Source of the DNA: Ignavibacteriaceae bacterium
Lineage (GTDB): Bacteria > Bacteroidota > Ignavibacteria > Ignavibacteriales > Ignavibacteriaceae
Direction of reading: 5' to 3'
Length of the DNA stretch: 64,000 nucleotides
Assembly (NCBI GenBank): GCA_013388545.1
Contig: JACAFB010000047.1
Span: forward strand, 118,704-182,703
Shown here: piece after piece, positions 56,541-62,851 of the stretch
Layout of the letters: every line of letters starts with the position of its first letter
Position numbering within the stretch: position 1 is the first letter of the stretch
The notes under the pieces: generated by a model
The model's input: the letters and a program-made list of their open reading frames with translations, nothing else
Database searches by the model: none
Told to the model about the DNA's origin: nothing
Translations under genes and position numbers: made by a program

Positions 56541-59147
56541 TTAAATAAGATTTATCATCTGAAGGATATCACATAATTTTTCAGAATCTATAAAAGAAAA
56601 ATTATCTGCGCTGATAATATTTTCTTTGCCTTCAATCTTAGCATTTGAGAAAAAGATAATTTTTTCTGTTAAAGAAAATTTATTTTGTGATAAGTAAAAA
56701 TCGTTTACTTCAGTATGGTCAACATAATCAGCATAGATAAATTTTGCCTGAAGATTTATTGTCCGTGTGTTTCGGATTATCGAACTATAAAGATTTACTT
56801 CCCTGCCAAACTCAATTTCCTGAGACTGAATTTCACGGAAACCAAGAAAGGTCAGAACACTTTCAATTTTTGCGAGGTAAATTTCAAATGAATAGCTCTC
56901 AACAATTGAAAGGTTAAATAATCTTTGCGCTTCAAATTCCTGGTCGCAGTTAAAATTACCAATGCCAAAAATGAATGTCCAATCTTCAATTGATATTAAC
57001 GATGATATTTTTTCAGCGGAAAGATTGTCGAATAAATTCTTATCCAATAAAGTGCGGTTGAACATATATTTTTTTATATCTTCAAAAATCGAATTACGCG
57101 TCAGGTAACTTACAATATGGACATTGCCAAAATTTAATAACGCATCGTATCTTAACATTTCATCGGTGTACCATTGATTTGCAGGATTCCATAAATGATC
57201 AAAATGAATGACATACTGAATATCTGATGGCTTAAAATAAATGTTTGGTAATTTACTTGAAGATAGAATAACATCAGCTTTGCTTTCCCGCACGTTTTTG
57301 CTGAATTGATTTTCTGCCGGGCGATCACTTCTGACAGCTTCATATAAATATGATCTGATTTTATTTTTCTTAAGAACATTTTCAATCCTCTTCAATCCTT
57401 GTCTGTCATATTGAGATAAAATCAGCACTTTTGAACCGTTTGAAATTATCTCATCAATCTGTTCAAGCATTAAATTAATTTTAGGATTTTCCTCAGATGA
57501 AGAAGAAAAATTACATACCTGGTTCAGTTTATGAAGAAGAGTAAAAATGTTGGCCTTATAAAAAAGCGGATTACCTTCATTGAACATACGCTTGAGATCT
57601 GATCTTCCTGACTGAAATATTTCTTCATATTCCAGTTTTTGACTTTCATCCAGGTTAATCCATAAATCCTGATGCGAAATCTGAGGAATGTCATCGTGGA
57701 AGTTTAACTTCTTCAAAGCTTGATATAGAAATCTATTCTGAGCTGACAATGACTTAATATCTTTATAAGAAATTCTCCACTTGTATTTCAGGTTTGGAAA
57801 ATTAAAATCTTCTAAGTTATAATCTTCAAGCTTTGAAGTGTCAATTACAAGACAGTCCGTTGTCTTTAGAATTGAGGATATTCTGTCAAGGTCAGAAAAA
57901 ATTTCTTTATAGTTCTCCGAGAGGATTAATTTAACAGGAACTCTGAATCTATGTTTATCTAGTTCATTGTAATTACTGAAAATCGCAGCCGGATAGTTAT
58001 ATAAATATTCCCGAAGAACATTAACCCAACCGTAATTCTGATGTTTATAATATCCAACTCTGTCGTTTCCAATGTTAGTACCATCTGTTAAAACAAGAAC
58101 TGATCTGATCTCTTTCTTTCTGAATAAAATTTTTAATGCATGAACCGCCTGCAAAATTATGTCCATCCCGACTTCTTCACATAACACTGCAGAGTGGTTT
58201 GATGCAAGAAATTTTGCCCCTGCTTTGTGATAAGATTTCAGAGGCTTTAAAATTTCTTTTTCTTCCTCGGCTGACAGTTCACAACCTTTTTCATAAAGGA
58301 TGCTGTATAAATAGGGCGGTAAATTTTCATCACTGAAGATATCAGTTATATCTGTGGCGAAATCAGTCTTTAAATCAGAGATTGAAAAATCGGAAATAAG
58401 CTCTTCAAAGTTTAGCTGAGAAAAATCAATAGCCTGAATCTCAACACCGGGAATTTCGGAGATTGAATAATTTAGCAGATGGTGGTGCCTGTTAAGTTGG
58501 ATATTTTTAGCGGAAAATACTTTAGGTTTTACATTTGGCAGTTCATCAATTTTACTTTTAAAAATTCGCACCTTTTTATTTATTGATTCAACTTTGAATG
58601 ATTTAACCGAAGGCAAGTGATCGTGTGTATTTTCAAAGTCAAATGAAGTAAAATTAACCTGATATATTTCAGCATTCAGGTTTTCAAGTTTGTTTAGGAC
58701 TTCGGGATTTGATAAAGTAAAATTGAATGATTTAAGGAGCCCAGCTTTCAACTCACTTTCAATTTCAGTAATTGAAATGTCCGGTTCCATCAAAGTTATT
58801 TTTTTTAACTCAGGTTTATGGAGTCTGCTGCCTTTATTAAATAAACTTGTCCGGACTTCTCCTTTTTTAATTGTAAAAAAAACAGGATTTGTTTTTGGCT
58901 TTTTAAATGAATTGGTTTCAATTTCCGGAAGAAGAAAAGTTGAGGAAAAGCTATAATTTATTTTGATATGAAGAGGGGGTATAAATTTCTTGTTAAAAGA
59001 AATCTGTTCACTTATCTCAACTGGAATTTTATCAATAACTATAAACTCGTTCAGAGGTGTTTTAATCCATTTTTGCCAGCTTGAATGCTCTGGCCCTTTG
59101 ATCGGGGAGATCTTAGGAGAAAGTTTTAATCTTAGCCGTCTAAGCAT
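56541..59147 (-). CDS. Degenerate SNF2-family helicase-like protein with C-terminal Mrr/restriction-endonuclease-like domain (putative pseudoenzyme)
   Basis: SNF2-like order of motifs but altered residues: LKSYHKAGAKFL (Q-like), VLCEEVGMDIILQAVHAL (motif I, GKT lost), DCLVIDTSKLEDYN (motif II, DEAH lost), KVLILSQYDRQGLKRIENVLKK (IV), YVIHFDHLWNPANQWYTDEMLRYD (V/VI, RxxR lost); C-term FEIYLAKIESVLTFLGF...GREVNLYSS...INLQAKFIYAD. Confidence 0.72.
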   Translation of the reverse strand: MLRRLRLKLSPKISPIKGPEHSSWQKWIKTPLNEFIVIDKIPVEISEQISFNKKFIPPLHIKINYSFSSTFLLPEIETNSFKKPKTNPVFFTIKKGEVRTSLFNKGSRLHKPELKKITLMEPDISITEIESELKAGLLKSFNFTLSNPEVLNKLENLNAEIYQVNFTSFDFENTHDHLPSVKSFKVESINKKVRIFKSKIDELPNVKPKVFSAKNIQLNRHHHLLNYSISEIPGVEIQAIDFSQLNFEELISDFSISDLKTDFATDITDIFSDENLPPYLYSILYEKGCELSAEEEKEILKPLKSYHKAGAKFLASNHSAVLCEEVGMDIILQAVHALKILFRKKEIRSVLVLTDGTNIGNDRVGYYKHQNYGWVNVLREYLYNYPAAIFSNYNELDKHRFRVPVKLILSENYKEIFSDLDRISSILKTTDCLVIDTSKLEDYNLEDFNFPNLKYKWRISYKDIKSLSAQNRFLYQALKKLNFHDDIPQISHQDLWINLDESQKLEYEEIFQSGRSDLKRMFNEGNPLFYKANIFTLLHKLNQVCNFSSSSEENPKINLMLEQIDEIISNGSKVLILSQYDRQGLKRIENVLKKNKIRSYLYEAVRSDRPAENQFSKNVRESKADVILSSSKLPNIYFKPSDIQYVIHFDHLWNPANQWYTDEMLRYDALLNFGNVHIVSYLTRNSIFEDIKKYMFNRTLLDKNLFDNLSAEKISSLISIEDWTFIFGIGNFNCDQEFEAQRLFNLSIVESYSFEIYLAKIESVLTFLGFREIQSQEIEFGREVNLYSSIIRNTRTINLQAKFIYADYVDHTEVNDFYLSQNKFSLTEKIIFFSNAKIEGKENIISADNFSFIDSEKLCDILQMINLI

Positions 59148-59151
59148 TTAA

Positions 59152-59685
59152 TTATTCATTAGTCTTTTGAAGATGAACCTGTTCACAGGCAAGTTTTAAT
59201 CTTTCAAAAGGCTCAAGCAAATATCGGTTTTCGGTAAGAGGTAAAAGTTTTTCAACAATGGATTCAAGTTCCGATTCGAATTTTTTTAGAGTTGAAACAA
59301 AAATCTTTCCTTTACCATTACCATTACTCAAGAATTTTTCACAAACCTGACTGCTCTTGTGTTGTCCATCCTCTTCGTTAAAAACCCTGATTATTCTTAC
59401 TCCCTGTTTATTATTTGCACCCAGGAAGAAGGGATCTTTGACAATTATCAGATCGATCTCCTGATTAATCGCATTTAGCAGAGGCAAAGAGATCAGTTCA
59501 ACAAGAATATGTTCCAGAAGCACATCTCCATACAATGTTTTCTGGAAATTAGTTGGTCTAATAGGCGCAGTAACTCTGAATTCAATTGGCTTTGTGTCGG
59601 AATCAGTAACCAAAATAGCCCCCATTAAACCTGATCCATCGGAAATTTTAAAGGTATCCAAAAAAGCTAATTTATTGATATCCAT
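59152..59685 (-). CDS. Conserved-looking hypothetical protein, putative partner of the SNF2-like protein
   Basis: 177-aa ORF with normal composition, stop 4 bp upstream of the SNF2-like start, same strand; no recognisable domain. Confidence 0.7.
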   Translation of the reverse strand: MDINKLAFLDTFKISDGSGLMGAILVTDSDTKPIEFRVTAPIRPTNFQKTLYGDVLLEHILVELISLPLLNAINQEIDLIIVKDPFFLGANNKQGVRIIRVFNEEDGQHKSSQVCEKFLSNGNGKGKIFVSTLKKFESELESIVEKLLPLTENRYLLEPFERLKLACEQVHLQKTNE

Positions 59686-60053: not shown

Positions 60054-60275
60054 ATGAAAAAAGCCTCTCAATTAAATTTTGGTGAAAAAGTAGTCATTAA
60101 CGACATAGATGTTCTAAGTCCTCACTGCAATCGTCTTCTTGAAGTTGGATTTACTCCCGGTCAACAAATCGAGCTGGTACATAAATCATTCTTTGATGAT
60201 CCGTTGGCATTCGCTTTAAGAGGAACCATCATCGCAATAAGAAAACACGAAGCTGATTCTATAACTGTTATTTAA
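60054..60275 (+). CDS. feoA: Ferrous iron transport protein A
   Basis: Small SH3-like protein (MKKASQLNFGEKVVINDIDVLSPHCNRLLEVGFTPGQQIELVHKSFFDDPLAFALRGTIIAIRKHEADSITV) directly before feoB. Confidence 0.93.
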   Translation: MKKASQLNFGEKVVINDIDVLSPHCNRLLEVGFTPGQQIELVHKSFFDDPLAFALRGTIIAIRKHEADSITVI

Positions 60276-60285
60276 TTATCTCTGG

Positions 60286-62310
60286 ATGACAAACTCTCCT
60301 TTAATTCTGTTGACCGGGCCGCCTAACTCCGGCAAGACAACTTTGTTTAATTTGCTTTGCGGAAAAAATTATAAGACCGTCAACTATCCTGGTTCAACTG
60401 TTGAGTATTTAACTTCCAGCATTTTAGAGAAGTACGATATTCAAGCCGATTTATTAGATTCACCTGGCATTATAAGTTTAAATCCTGAATCCCCTGACGA
60501 GAAAGTTTCCGTCGATTCATTACTAAATCCACCTGGTGACAAGCAGACAAAGCTTGTGATAGTAACAATCGACTCAACTCAGCTTACAAGACACCTTCTT
60601 CTGGCAAAGCAGTTAAAGTTAAGCGGCTTTAGAATCATTATTGTACTTACTATGGTTGATCTCCTGAAAAAGCGTGGATATGATATCAATGCTGATTTAC
60701 TTAGTGAAAAGTGTGCCTGCCCTGTTATAAAAATTGATGGCAGGACTGGCAACGGAATTGAAAATCTCCTAATTGAAATAAGACACTCCCTGAATGATTC
60801 TATTCTTACTCCGATTGAAAAAGTAAGAAGTTCATTGAAGGAATTCAGTAAAGATGAATTGTTAGAAATATATTCCGAGAATGAAAAAATTGAAAAAGAT
60901 TGCATCCACGAAATAAATTCTCCGGTTAATAAGGATCAACTAAATAAGGCAAATGCTGAAATAAATATTATTCAAGATAGAAATGTAAAAGCCTCGCTGA
61001 AGATTGATGAAACCACAAGAAAAATCGATTCTATATTATTGCATAAATCCTACGGTATTTTGATATTCATTCTCATTATGACTTTAATTTTCAGCTCAAT
61101 TTTCTGGCTGGCAAATCCACTGATGCAATTAGTAGACGAATTTTTTGGCGACCTTGCATCGAAAGCAAATACTTTGTTTGGGCAGAATCTTCTGGGCGAT
61201 TTGATTTCAAATGGTATAATCAGCGGAACCGGTTCAGTATTGGTTTTCGTTCCACAGATAATAATACTCTTTCTGATTTTAGGGTTGCTCGAGGACACTG
61301 GTTATCTTGCAAGAGGTGCAATGTTAATAGATAAACCTCTTTCAAAAATCGGATTAAATGGAAGATCATTTGTTCCGATGCTTACGGGATTTGCTTGTGC
61401 AATTCCTGCAATGCTTGCCACCCGAACTATTCCGAACCGCAGAGAAAGACTGTTAACGATTTTCATTATTCCACTTATGAGCTGCAGCGCACGTTTACCA
61501 GTCTATGCACTGTTAATTGCATATCTTACTCCCCCTGATAAACCCTGGCTTGGCGGAGTGATTCTGACTTCAATTTATATACTCAGCATTTTGAGCTCGG
61601 CAATTATATCTGCGATAATTAATAAAACCAAAAATAAACTTGTAAATGTGAGCGATAACTCATCCTTCATTCTAGAACTGCCAACTTATCGTTTCCCAAA
61701 GTTCAGAAATATTCTTTACAACACAATTGACCGGACTTTTTCATATATAAAACGGGCTGGCCCGGTAATTATTCTCTTTTCTTTATCATTATGGTTTTTA
61801 ACTTATTTCCCTGATAATAATCCTAAAGTTGATACTGCCGGTTTATCAGAAAATGAAATTATTGAATTACAAAATGCTGAAAGACTTTCAAACTCATATG
61901 CTGCCGGTTTAGGCAAACTTATACAGCCAATTATGACTCCTTTAGGAATGGATTGGAGAGTGGGAGTATCACTGATTTCTGCTTTCGCTGCACGCGAAGT
62001 CTTTGTAAGTTCACTTGCTTTAATATTTAAAGTTACCGGCGAGGATGAAACTTTGCAAGCATCAATGCTTGATGCAATGAAAAAAGCTGAAATTGAAGGA
62101 ACCGGCAAAAAGTTATTTACAAAATCAACGATCATTGGTTTGATTGTCTTTTTTGTTTTTGCAATGCAATGTTTGTCGACTGCAGCAGTCGCTCGTAAAG
62201 AAACCGGAAGCTGGCGTATACCAATTTTACAGATAATTATATTTTCCACTTTCGCTTATGTGTTCACATTTATAACTGTTAATGTATTGCAGGCAATCGG
62301 TATTTCATAA
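60286..62310 (+). CDS. feoB: Ferrous iron transport protein B
   Basis: TGPPNSGKTTLFNLLCG, NYPGSTVE, DSPGI; gate motifs GFACAIPAMLATRTIPNRRERLLTIFIIPLMSCSARLPVYALL. Confidence 0.96.
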   Translation: MTNSPLILLTGPPNSGKTTLFNLLCGKNYKTVNYPGSTVEYLTSSILEKYDIQADLLDSPGIISLNPESPDEKVSVDSLLNPPGDKQTKLVIVTIDSTQLTRHLLLAKQLKLSGFRIIIVLTMVDLLKKRGYDINADLLSEKCACPVIKIDGRTGNGIENLLIEIRHSLNDSILTPIEKVRSSLKEFSKDELLEIYSENEKIEKDCIHEINSPVNKDQLNKANAEINIIQDRNVKASLKIDETTRKIDSILLHKSYGILIFILIMTLIFSSIFWLANPLMQLVDEFFGDLASKANTLFGQNLLGDLISNGIISGTGSVLVFVPQIIILFLILGLLEDTGYLARGAMLIDKPLSKIGLNGRSFVPMLTGFACAIPAMLATRTIPNRRERLLTIFIIPLMSCSARLPVYALLIAYLTPPDKPWLGGVILTSIYILSILSSAIISAIINKTKNKLVNVSDNSSFILELPTYRFPKFRNILYNTIDRTFSYIKRAGPVIILFSLSLWFLTYFPDNNPKVDTAGLSENEIIELQNAERLSNSYAAGLGKLIQPIMTPLGMDWRVGVSLISAFAAREVFVSSLALIFKVTGEDETLQASMLDAMKKAEIEGTGKKLFTKSTIIGLIVFFVFAMQCLSTAAVARKETGSWRIPILQIIIFSTFAYVFTFITVNVLQAIGIS

Positions 62311-62377
62311 AAAATAATTATTCACTGTTTATTATCTTAAGAATAGTATTTGAAAAAATTAGAATTCTGATAATTAA

Positions 62378-62851
62378 ATGAAAAATCAACAAGCAAGGGA
62401 TATCTTTCGTAATTACCTTAAAAACGGAAAGAACAGGATAACCCCCGAAAGATTCGAAGTTTTGGAATCAGCACTTGAGTATGAAGGACATTTTGGCGCT
62501 GATGATTTGTACATATTAATGAAAAATAAAAAGTCCAGGGTTTCAAGAGCAACTGTTTATAATACACTTGAACTTCTCTCACAGTGTGATCTTTTAAGCA
62601 AAAGAAATTTTGGTGATAACCTCACCCGGTATGAAATAAATTATAAAAAACAAACGCACGATCACCTTATTTGCGTTGATTGCGGACGAATTGTTGAATT
62701 TACTGAAACTATAATGAAAAAACTTCCGGAAGAAATCTGTGATAGTTTAGGATTTAATTTTGAAAGTTATTCTTTTAATATTTTTGGCAGATGCAAGGAA
62801 CCGAGAACCTGCAAAGCCGGCTCATCAAAAGAAAATAAAATCAACAAATAA
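62378..62851 (+). CDS. Fur family transcriptional regulator
   Basis: NRITPERFEVLESALEYEGHFGADDLYILMKNKKSRVSRATVYNTLELLSQCDLL; HDHLICVDCGRIVEF. Confidence 0.94.
   Translation: MKNQQARDIFRNYLKNGKNRITPERFEVLESALEYEGHFGADDLYILMKNKKSRVSRATVYNTLELLSQCDLLSKRNFGDNLTRYEINYKKQTHDHLICVDCGRIVEFTETIMKKLPEEICDSLGFNFESYSFNIFGRCKEPRTCKAGSSKENKINK

Follow-up and report, generated by a model that had tools for sequence, protein, structure and literature searches.

An Ignavibacteriaceae bacterium carries a two-gene unit that codes a protein of 868 amino acids (P868), very likely a SNF2 pseudo-ATPase, and a partner of 177 amino acids (P177). The explanation that we favor on balance is that P868 is a genuine SNF2 pseudo-ATPase that would act as a non-motor scaffold for P177 and that derives from, or has a common ancestor with, an active module composed of P177 and a SNF2 effector. 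It is based on homology, motif loss, gene pairing, purifying selection in relatives, synteny and a reversal of evolutionary rates. Complex formation by the two proteins, DNA binding and the cellular role of the pair are what we infer beyond these observations. The window referred to below is the whole 64,000-nucleotide stretch of contig JACAFB010000047.1 that was analysed. The two ORFs have the lengths given in the initial annotation of this DNA and lie on the same strand, with 4 nt between the P177 stop codon and the P868 start codon (Table 1).

Table 1. Features of the P177-P868 unit and of the neighbouring genes. Positions are those of the window.
Feature	Position	Strand	Remarks
P868, very likely a SNF2 pseudo-ATPase, with degenerate C-terminal nuclease domain	56541..59147	-	868 aa; identified by ORF, phmmer, family profile, AlphaFold, Foldseek
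P868 N-terminal region, aa 1-290	58278..59147	-	pLDDT mostly <50; fast evolving
P868 SNF2-like two-lobe core, aa 291-725	56973..58277	-	family profile, AlphaFold model, Foldseek
Degenerate Walker A / motif I, AVLCEEVGMDIILQ, aa 320-333	58149..58190	-	Lys replaced by Ile; GMDII in place of GxGKT
Degenerate motif II, CLVIDTSKLED, aa 432-442	57822..57854	-	Asp kept, Glu lost; IDTSK for DEAH
Degenerate motif III, YKWRISYKDIK, aa 455-465	57753..57785	-	ISYKD for TGTP
Degenerate motif VI, WYTDEMLRYDALL, aa 659-671	57135..57173	-	arginine fingers gone; YTDEMLRYD for DRxHRxGQ
P868 degenerate Mrr-like domain, aa 734-864	56556..56948	-	catalytic Asp replaced by Asn; QAK kept
P177, first gene of the pair	59152..59685	-	177 aa; family without a name; predicted RNase H-like fold
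feoA	60054-60275	+	divergent neighbour; context, outside the unit
feoB	60286-62310	+	divergent neighbour; context, outside the unit
fur	62378-62851	+	divergent neighbour, context, outside the unit; feoA-feoB-fur block 60054..62851; feoB-fur kept beside the pair in many relatives

Domain Organization of P868

The single P868 sequence gave only sub-threshold matches to Pfam, none of them over the cut-off, and its phmmer match to a Sulfolobus SNF2/Rad54 protein (E = 1.8e-5) is a weak identification. A profile of the P868 family (14 relatives) matched the SNF2 core structure 1z63 at E = 4.6e-30 with both lobes covered. The AlphaFold2 model is mostly confident from about residue 290 to 868, and Foldseek superposed it on 1z63 with a TMt of 0.69 and an rmsd of 4.5 Å. 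Two RecA-like lobes are predicted in this model and the motif sites follow the SNF2 order, as expected for SNF2 fold and descent. Judged by profile and predicted structure, the two-lobe SNF2 layout proposed in the initial annotation is real.

Two parts of the protein had been overlooked there: the N-terminal region of ~290 residues, whose structure is predicted with low confidence, and a degenerate Mrr-like domain at aa ~734-864. Mrr_cat was matched by 6 of the 14 relatives, alignment of the C-terminal family alignment with intact Mrr domains by hhalign gave a profile-profile match of 97.4%, and the model of this region shows the alpha/beta layout of the Mrr_cat fold. Its substituted catalytic residue (Table 1) makes the nuclease domain look dead as well. 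The domain is absent from three relatives (L058, L068 and L081).

Loss of the ATPase Motifs

The alignment used to compare motifs contained P868, 37 Ignavibacterial relatives and the intact orthologous pairs, four at first and five later; in it the motif sites of P868 align with the intact motifs of the orthologous pairs. The Walker A Lys is Ile in P868, the Glu of DExx is Thr and TGTP reads SYKD; motif V is degraded and both arginines of motif VI are missing. The signatures of an active SNF2 ATPase (GxGKT, DExx, [ST]GTP, DRxxRxxQ) are thereby all disrupted. The replacements initially read from the sequence (GMDII, IDTSK, ISYKD and YTDEMLRYD) were correct, with the amendment that the Walker B Asp is still present and Glu alone is lost from motif II. 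P868 keeps 3 of the 26 ATP-motif columns that are invariant in five intact relatives versus 49 of 107 such columns elsewhere (Fisher p = 0.0014). This excess loss is significant for P868 alone: family-wide, 9/26 versus 49/107 columns are kept (p = 0.38), a non-significant difference that reflects the frequent retention of motif I and motif II residues. P868 is very likely a pseudo-ATPase, and its motifs predict neither ATP hydrolysis nor translocation.

Across the 38 Ignavibacterial members essentially nothing is left of motifs III, V and VI; the lone R..R match to motif VI, in L058, is RSGR, a chance resemblance. All motifs are present in the intact outgroups. The search for Ignavibacterial homologues with a full motif set found none, and the pseudo-helicase claim of the initial annotation gains from these losses being common to the family. 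The replacement of Lys by Ile and of DEAH by DTSK, in turn, failed as a family rule. The Walker A Lys is retained in 30 of the 38 members, 11 of which have the whole GxGK[ST], and the Walker B Asp is present in nearly all members; the family may therefore still bind nucleotide. Parsimony places five changes of Walker A state on the tree, at least three of them forced by well-supported branches; by this reconstruction Walker A was lost several times within Ignavibacteria. P868 has no close relative and forms the longest end branch (1.73); its Ile and DTSK appear as the extreme state of one long branch, and the clade-wide lesion, as read from the alignment, is the disappearance of motifs III, V and VI. 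The absence of motif VI from every Ignavibacterial member suggests that it was lost once, early in this group, in a tree that is incompletely resolved and in which an intact outgroup joins inside. In one relative (L060:10498-12762) the motif I and motif III regions of the first RecA lobe are seemingly missing, with the pair arrangement kept.

The P177 Protein

No credible match to P177 was found in Pfam, NCBIfam, PADLOC, PHROGs or PDB sequences; its profile retrieved nothing meaningful from PDB sequences, and comparison with a viral fold library gave no match below 1e-3. Foldseek related the structural model (pLDDT 84, pTM 0.82) to the RNase H-like fold of endonuclease V, Argonaute PIWI and NurA, with E about 1e-5 and a probability of 1.0 but moderate TMq values of 0.38-0.60. 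These are the solved folds closest to the P177 model, but sequence similarity to them was not detected, and no conserved acidic residue occupies the position of the first-strand catalytic Asp across 26 P177 homologues. P177 is therefore probably not a canonical nuclease. Endonuclease V proteins of the relatives, sought for a profile comparison with P177, yielded three partial matches only. Across the order, identity is 52-69% for P177 versus about 20-25% for P868. Residues G22, Y52, G53, E158, P159 and R162 of P177 are invariant.

Conservation and Context of the Gene Pair

P177 and a close P868 homologue occur in the same 16 of 59 relative genomes; the two extra P868 matches, in G040 and G042, are to ordinary SNF2 proteins whose motifs are intact. 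Searching one genome per GTDB species with the P177 profile identified 42 contig loci, including one fused remnant (L094, see below) and a few that run off short contigs, and an SNF2-like gene adjoins P177 in 42/42. The stop-to-start gap is -37 to +28 nt in 36 of the 37 loci measured and 215 nt in the remaining one. A conserved P177-P868 two-gene unit is near certain, and the linkage that the initial annotation had made a condition of its proposal is borne out. Promoter and terminator patterns at the pair were not above shuffled background.

The neighbours of the pair are nuo genes, asnS, a cupin gene, a LolA-like gene, feoAB and fur. Synteny with feoB extends to 17 loci, including the window, and synteny with fur and the MBL-fold gene to 13. 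P177 was found neither on plasmids, phages or viral contigs nor outside Ignavibacteria in the sample of its own phylum; in a sample drawn around genome G333 it was present in G333 itself only. A pair of the Ignavibacterial type, whose SNF2-like ORF has only 422 aa, was found on a short contig (L053) in a 1.5-Mb MAG that carries the label Gammaproteobacteria and is probably misbinned. A histidine kinase gene is located upstream of P177 on the same strand, at a distance of 355-800 nt, in eight loci (L054, L055, L056, L059, L064, L066, L071, L078). Its PAS/GAF domains were confirmed for L064, and the gene is missing from the window.

Selection and Evolutionary Rates

The three closest pairs of P868 homologues with a broken Walker A have dN/dS values of 0.071, 0.082 and 0.078, and the ratio reaches about 0.18 for more distant dead-motif pairs, with many dS values near saturation. 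For P177 it is 0.02-0.07. These values were measured on relatives, as P868 has no close relative with which selection on P868 alone could be measured. Purifying selection at this level (0.07-0.18) indicates that the dead-motif SNF2-like family is maintained; together with the complete partner linkage it upholds the initial view of a maintained gene rather than a decaying one. The mean p-distance between intact pairs of different phyla is 0.60 for P177 and 0.58 for the SNF2 protein, versus 0.35 and 0.74, respectively, within Ignavibacteria, where the two distances are correlated (r = 0.84). The rates are thus reversed in Ignavibacteria, where P177 has slowed and its SNF2-like partner has accelerated.

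Intact Relatives in Other Phyla

The partner of P177 is a SNF2 protein with intact motifs in Nostoc, Symplocastrum, Desulfobacteraceae and two Acidobacteriota loci, and the closest P177 relatives beyond Ignavibacteria all adjoin SNF2 DNA motors. The C-terminus of the intact SNF2 proteins is variable: Mrr_cat, a phosphorylase domain (PNP_UDP_1), an unassigned region or none. The best PADLOC profiles for them are ZorD and DpdE, followed by DrmD; against the ZorD cut-off of 1500 they reach 134-174 bits. Genes for Mrr, HNH, HSDR_N, PIN and DUF6088 proteins are among those found nearby.

Several loci have a particular organization. In Nostoc (L090:10729-13368) an intact SNF2 protein beside P177 is fused to the nucleoside-phosphorylase domain PNP_UDP_1, a variant with a swapped C-terminal domain, and in Nostoc mirabile (L094:10097-10648) a single frame joins a P177 fragment to part of the SNF2 second lobe, apparently what a deletion left of the pair. 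A P177 homologue from the cyanobacterial phylum sample (L117:6888-9053) adjoins a sigma-70-type sigma factor gene and a PilZ/YcgR-like gene. In Acidobacteriota (L121, L122-L134) a distant P177-like gene recurs in a cluster with a partner of ~260 aa that has no Pfam match, one or two FHA-GGDEF genes and a Ser/Thr kinase gene, possibly an undescribed signalling cassette. No similarity between this 260-aa partner and the N-terminal 300 aa of P868 was detected by hhalign.

Comparison with Known Systems

The order of SNF2 and Mrr-like domains in the P868 family is that of ZorD, the SWI2/SNF2 helicase with an Mrr-like nuclease of type I Zorya, whose profile is the top PADLOC one for the intact relatives. 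P868 has no ZorA, ZorB or ZorC neighbours and is partnered by P177 instead, the Ignavibacterial forms are dead, and the NCBIfam ZorD search gave no match to P868. Nor were above-cut-off profiles with partner genes found for P868 among the SNF2 components of DISARM, BREX and Dpd. In BrxHII and RapA, too, a degenerate restriction-endonuclease-like domain comes after the SNF2 core, but they are described as helicases with an inactive REase (PMC12839542), whereas in P868 the SNF2 core appears dead too and the partner differs.

Inactive SNF2 domains were proposed to bind or sense DNA, from sequence and structure, in the case of the inactive lobe of DndH (PMC10853773) and of the inactive SWI2/SNF2 domain of PglZ, with inactive REases as a further precedent (PMC12839542). 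Like P868, these are SNF2-derived P-loop domains without catalytic motifs or arginine fingers (PMC10853773, PMC12839542). They are second-lobe domains inside a larger protein, whereas P868 keeps both lobes, the whole SNF2 layout and a P177 partner. In a limited search of partial literature, no account of a complete two-lobe SNF2 pseudo-ATPase that has a fixed partner was found.

Origin and Possible Role of the Pair

In the explanation that we favor, the ancestor would be an active module of P177 and a SNF2 effector that survives in Cyanobacteria, Desulfobacteraceae and Acidobacteriota, related to the Ignavibacterial pair by descent or common ancestry. Motifs III, V and VI would have been lost early in Ignavibacteria, followed by repeated erosion of Walker A. 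In the simplest account, ATP-driven translocation disappeared and a scaffold contacting P177, and perhaps DNA, was kept. What remains in P868 would most likely be a non-motor, probably DNA-binding scaffold holding or positioning P177, the presumed functional centre of the unit. Domestication of the pair from a defence-like module is plausible. A bolder form of this proposal, which we find possible though doubtful, is that a two-gene defence-type SNF2-effector module was turned in Ignavibacteria into a scaffold that binds DNA, has no motor activity, is inherited vertically and serves a new RNase H-fold family. Living lineages would then show graded stages, from fully active forms through forms that have Walker A but no motif VI to forms that are dead throughout, nuclease domain included.

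The initial annotation had envisaged a regulatory, DNA-recognition or defence module. The idea of a defence module has indirect support: it fits the intact relatives in other phyla, whose profiles resemble ZorD, DpdE and DrmD and which have effector-type swapped C-termini and the nuclease and other genes listed above in their vicinity; in Ignavibacteria the locus shows no sign of mobility and is in many cases syntenic by feoAB-fur, outside a defence island. The pair might still be an active defence module there if the dead SNF2/Mrr protein were a sensor or decoy for invader DNA, with P177 or another protein as effector. Inactive enzymes and SNF2 lobes have been proposed as sensors of defence systems (PMC7159879, PMC10853773, PMC12839542), and the fast evolution of P868 would suit such a role, but one chromosomal place by feoB-fur in 17 loci, the lack of any copy found on plasmids, phages or viral contigs and a P177 conservation unusually high for a defence gene make it rather unlikely. 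Also improbable is a housekeeping or signalling role, with P177 as a member of a regulatory family and P868 as its structural partner in a signalling complex unrelated to DNA. Vertical and syntenic inheritance, the Acidobacterial operons with FHA-GGDEF and Ser/Thr kinase genes and the histidine kinase gene that precedes the pair in 8 Ignavibacterial loci are consistent with it; the 260-aa Acidobacterial partner, however, has no detectable similarity to P868, the kinase gene is distant where present and missing from the window, and the nearest non-Ignavibacterial relatives of P177 all lie beside SNF2 DNA motors.

The two other alternatives concern P868 itself. A gene on its way to loss, with a recently dead motor, would account for the very fast evolution of P868, for the several members in which the C-terminal domain or a part of lobe 1 is absent and for the fused remnant L094, but such decay was rejected as highly improbable given the dN/dS of dead-motif pairs, 868 open codons, complete linkage to P177 and retention of structural core residues. 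That P868 is still an ATPase with an unusual active site is scarcely credible: most family members do keep the Walker A Lys and the Walker B Asp, yet P868 has lost Lys, Glu, motif III, motif V and both arginine fingers, and motif VI is missing in every Ignavibacterial member.

With the scaffold reading preferred, the novelty of P868 lies in its being a complete two-lobe pseudo-ATPase, very likely, with a fixed partner, the known cases in bacterial defence proteins being single inactive SNF2 lobes. The presence of intact, intermediate and dead forms in one gene family makes the loss of a motor with retention of its scaffold testable by comparison of orthologues. P177 represents a protein family without a name that is found also in the Acidobacterial FHA-GGDEF-kinase operons, and its binding target would inform both contexts.
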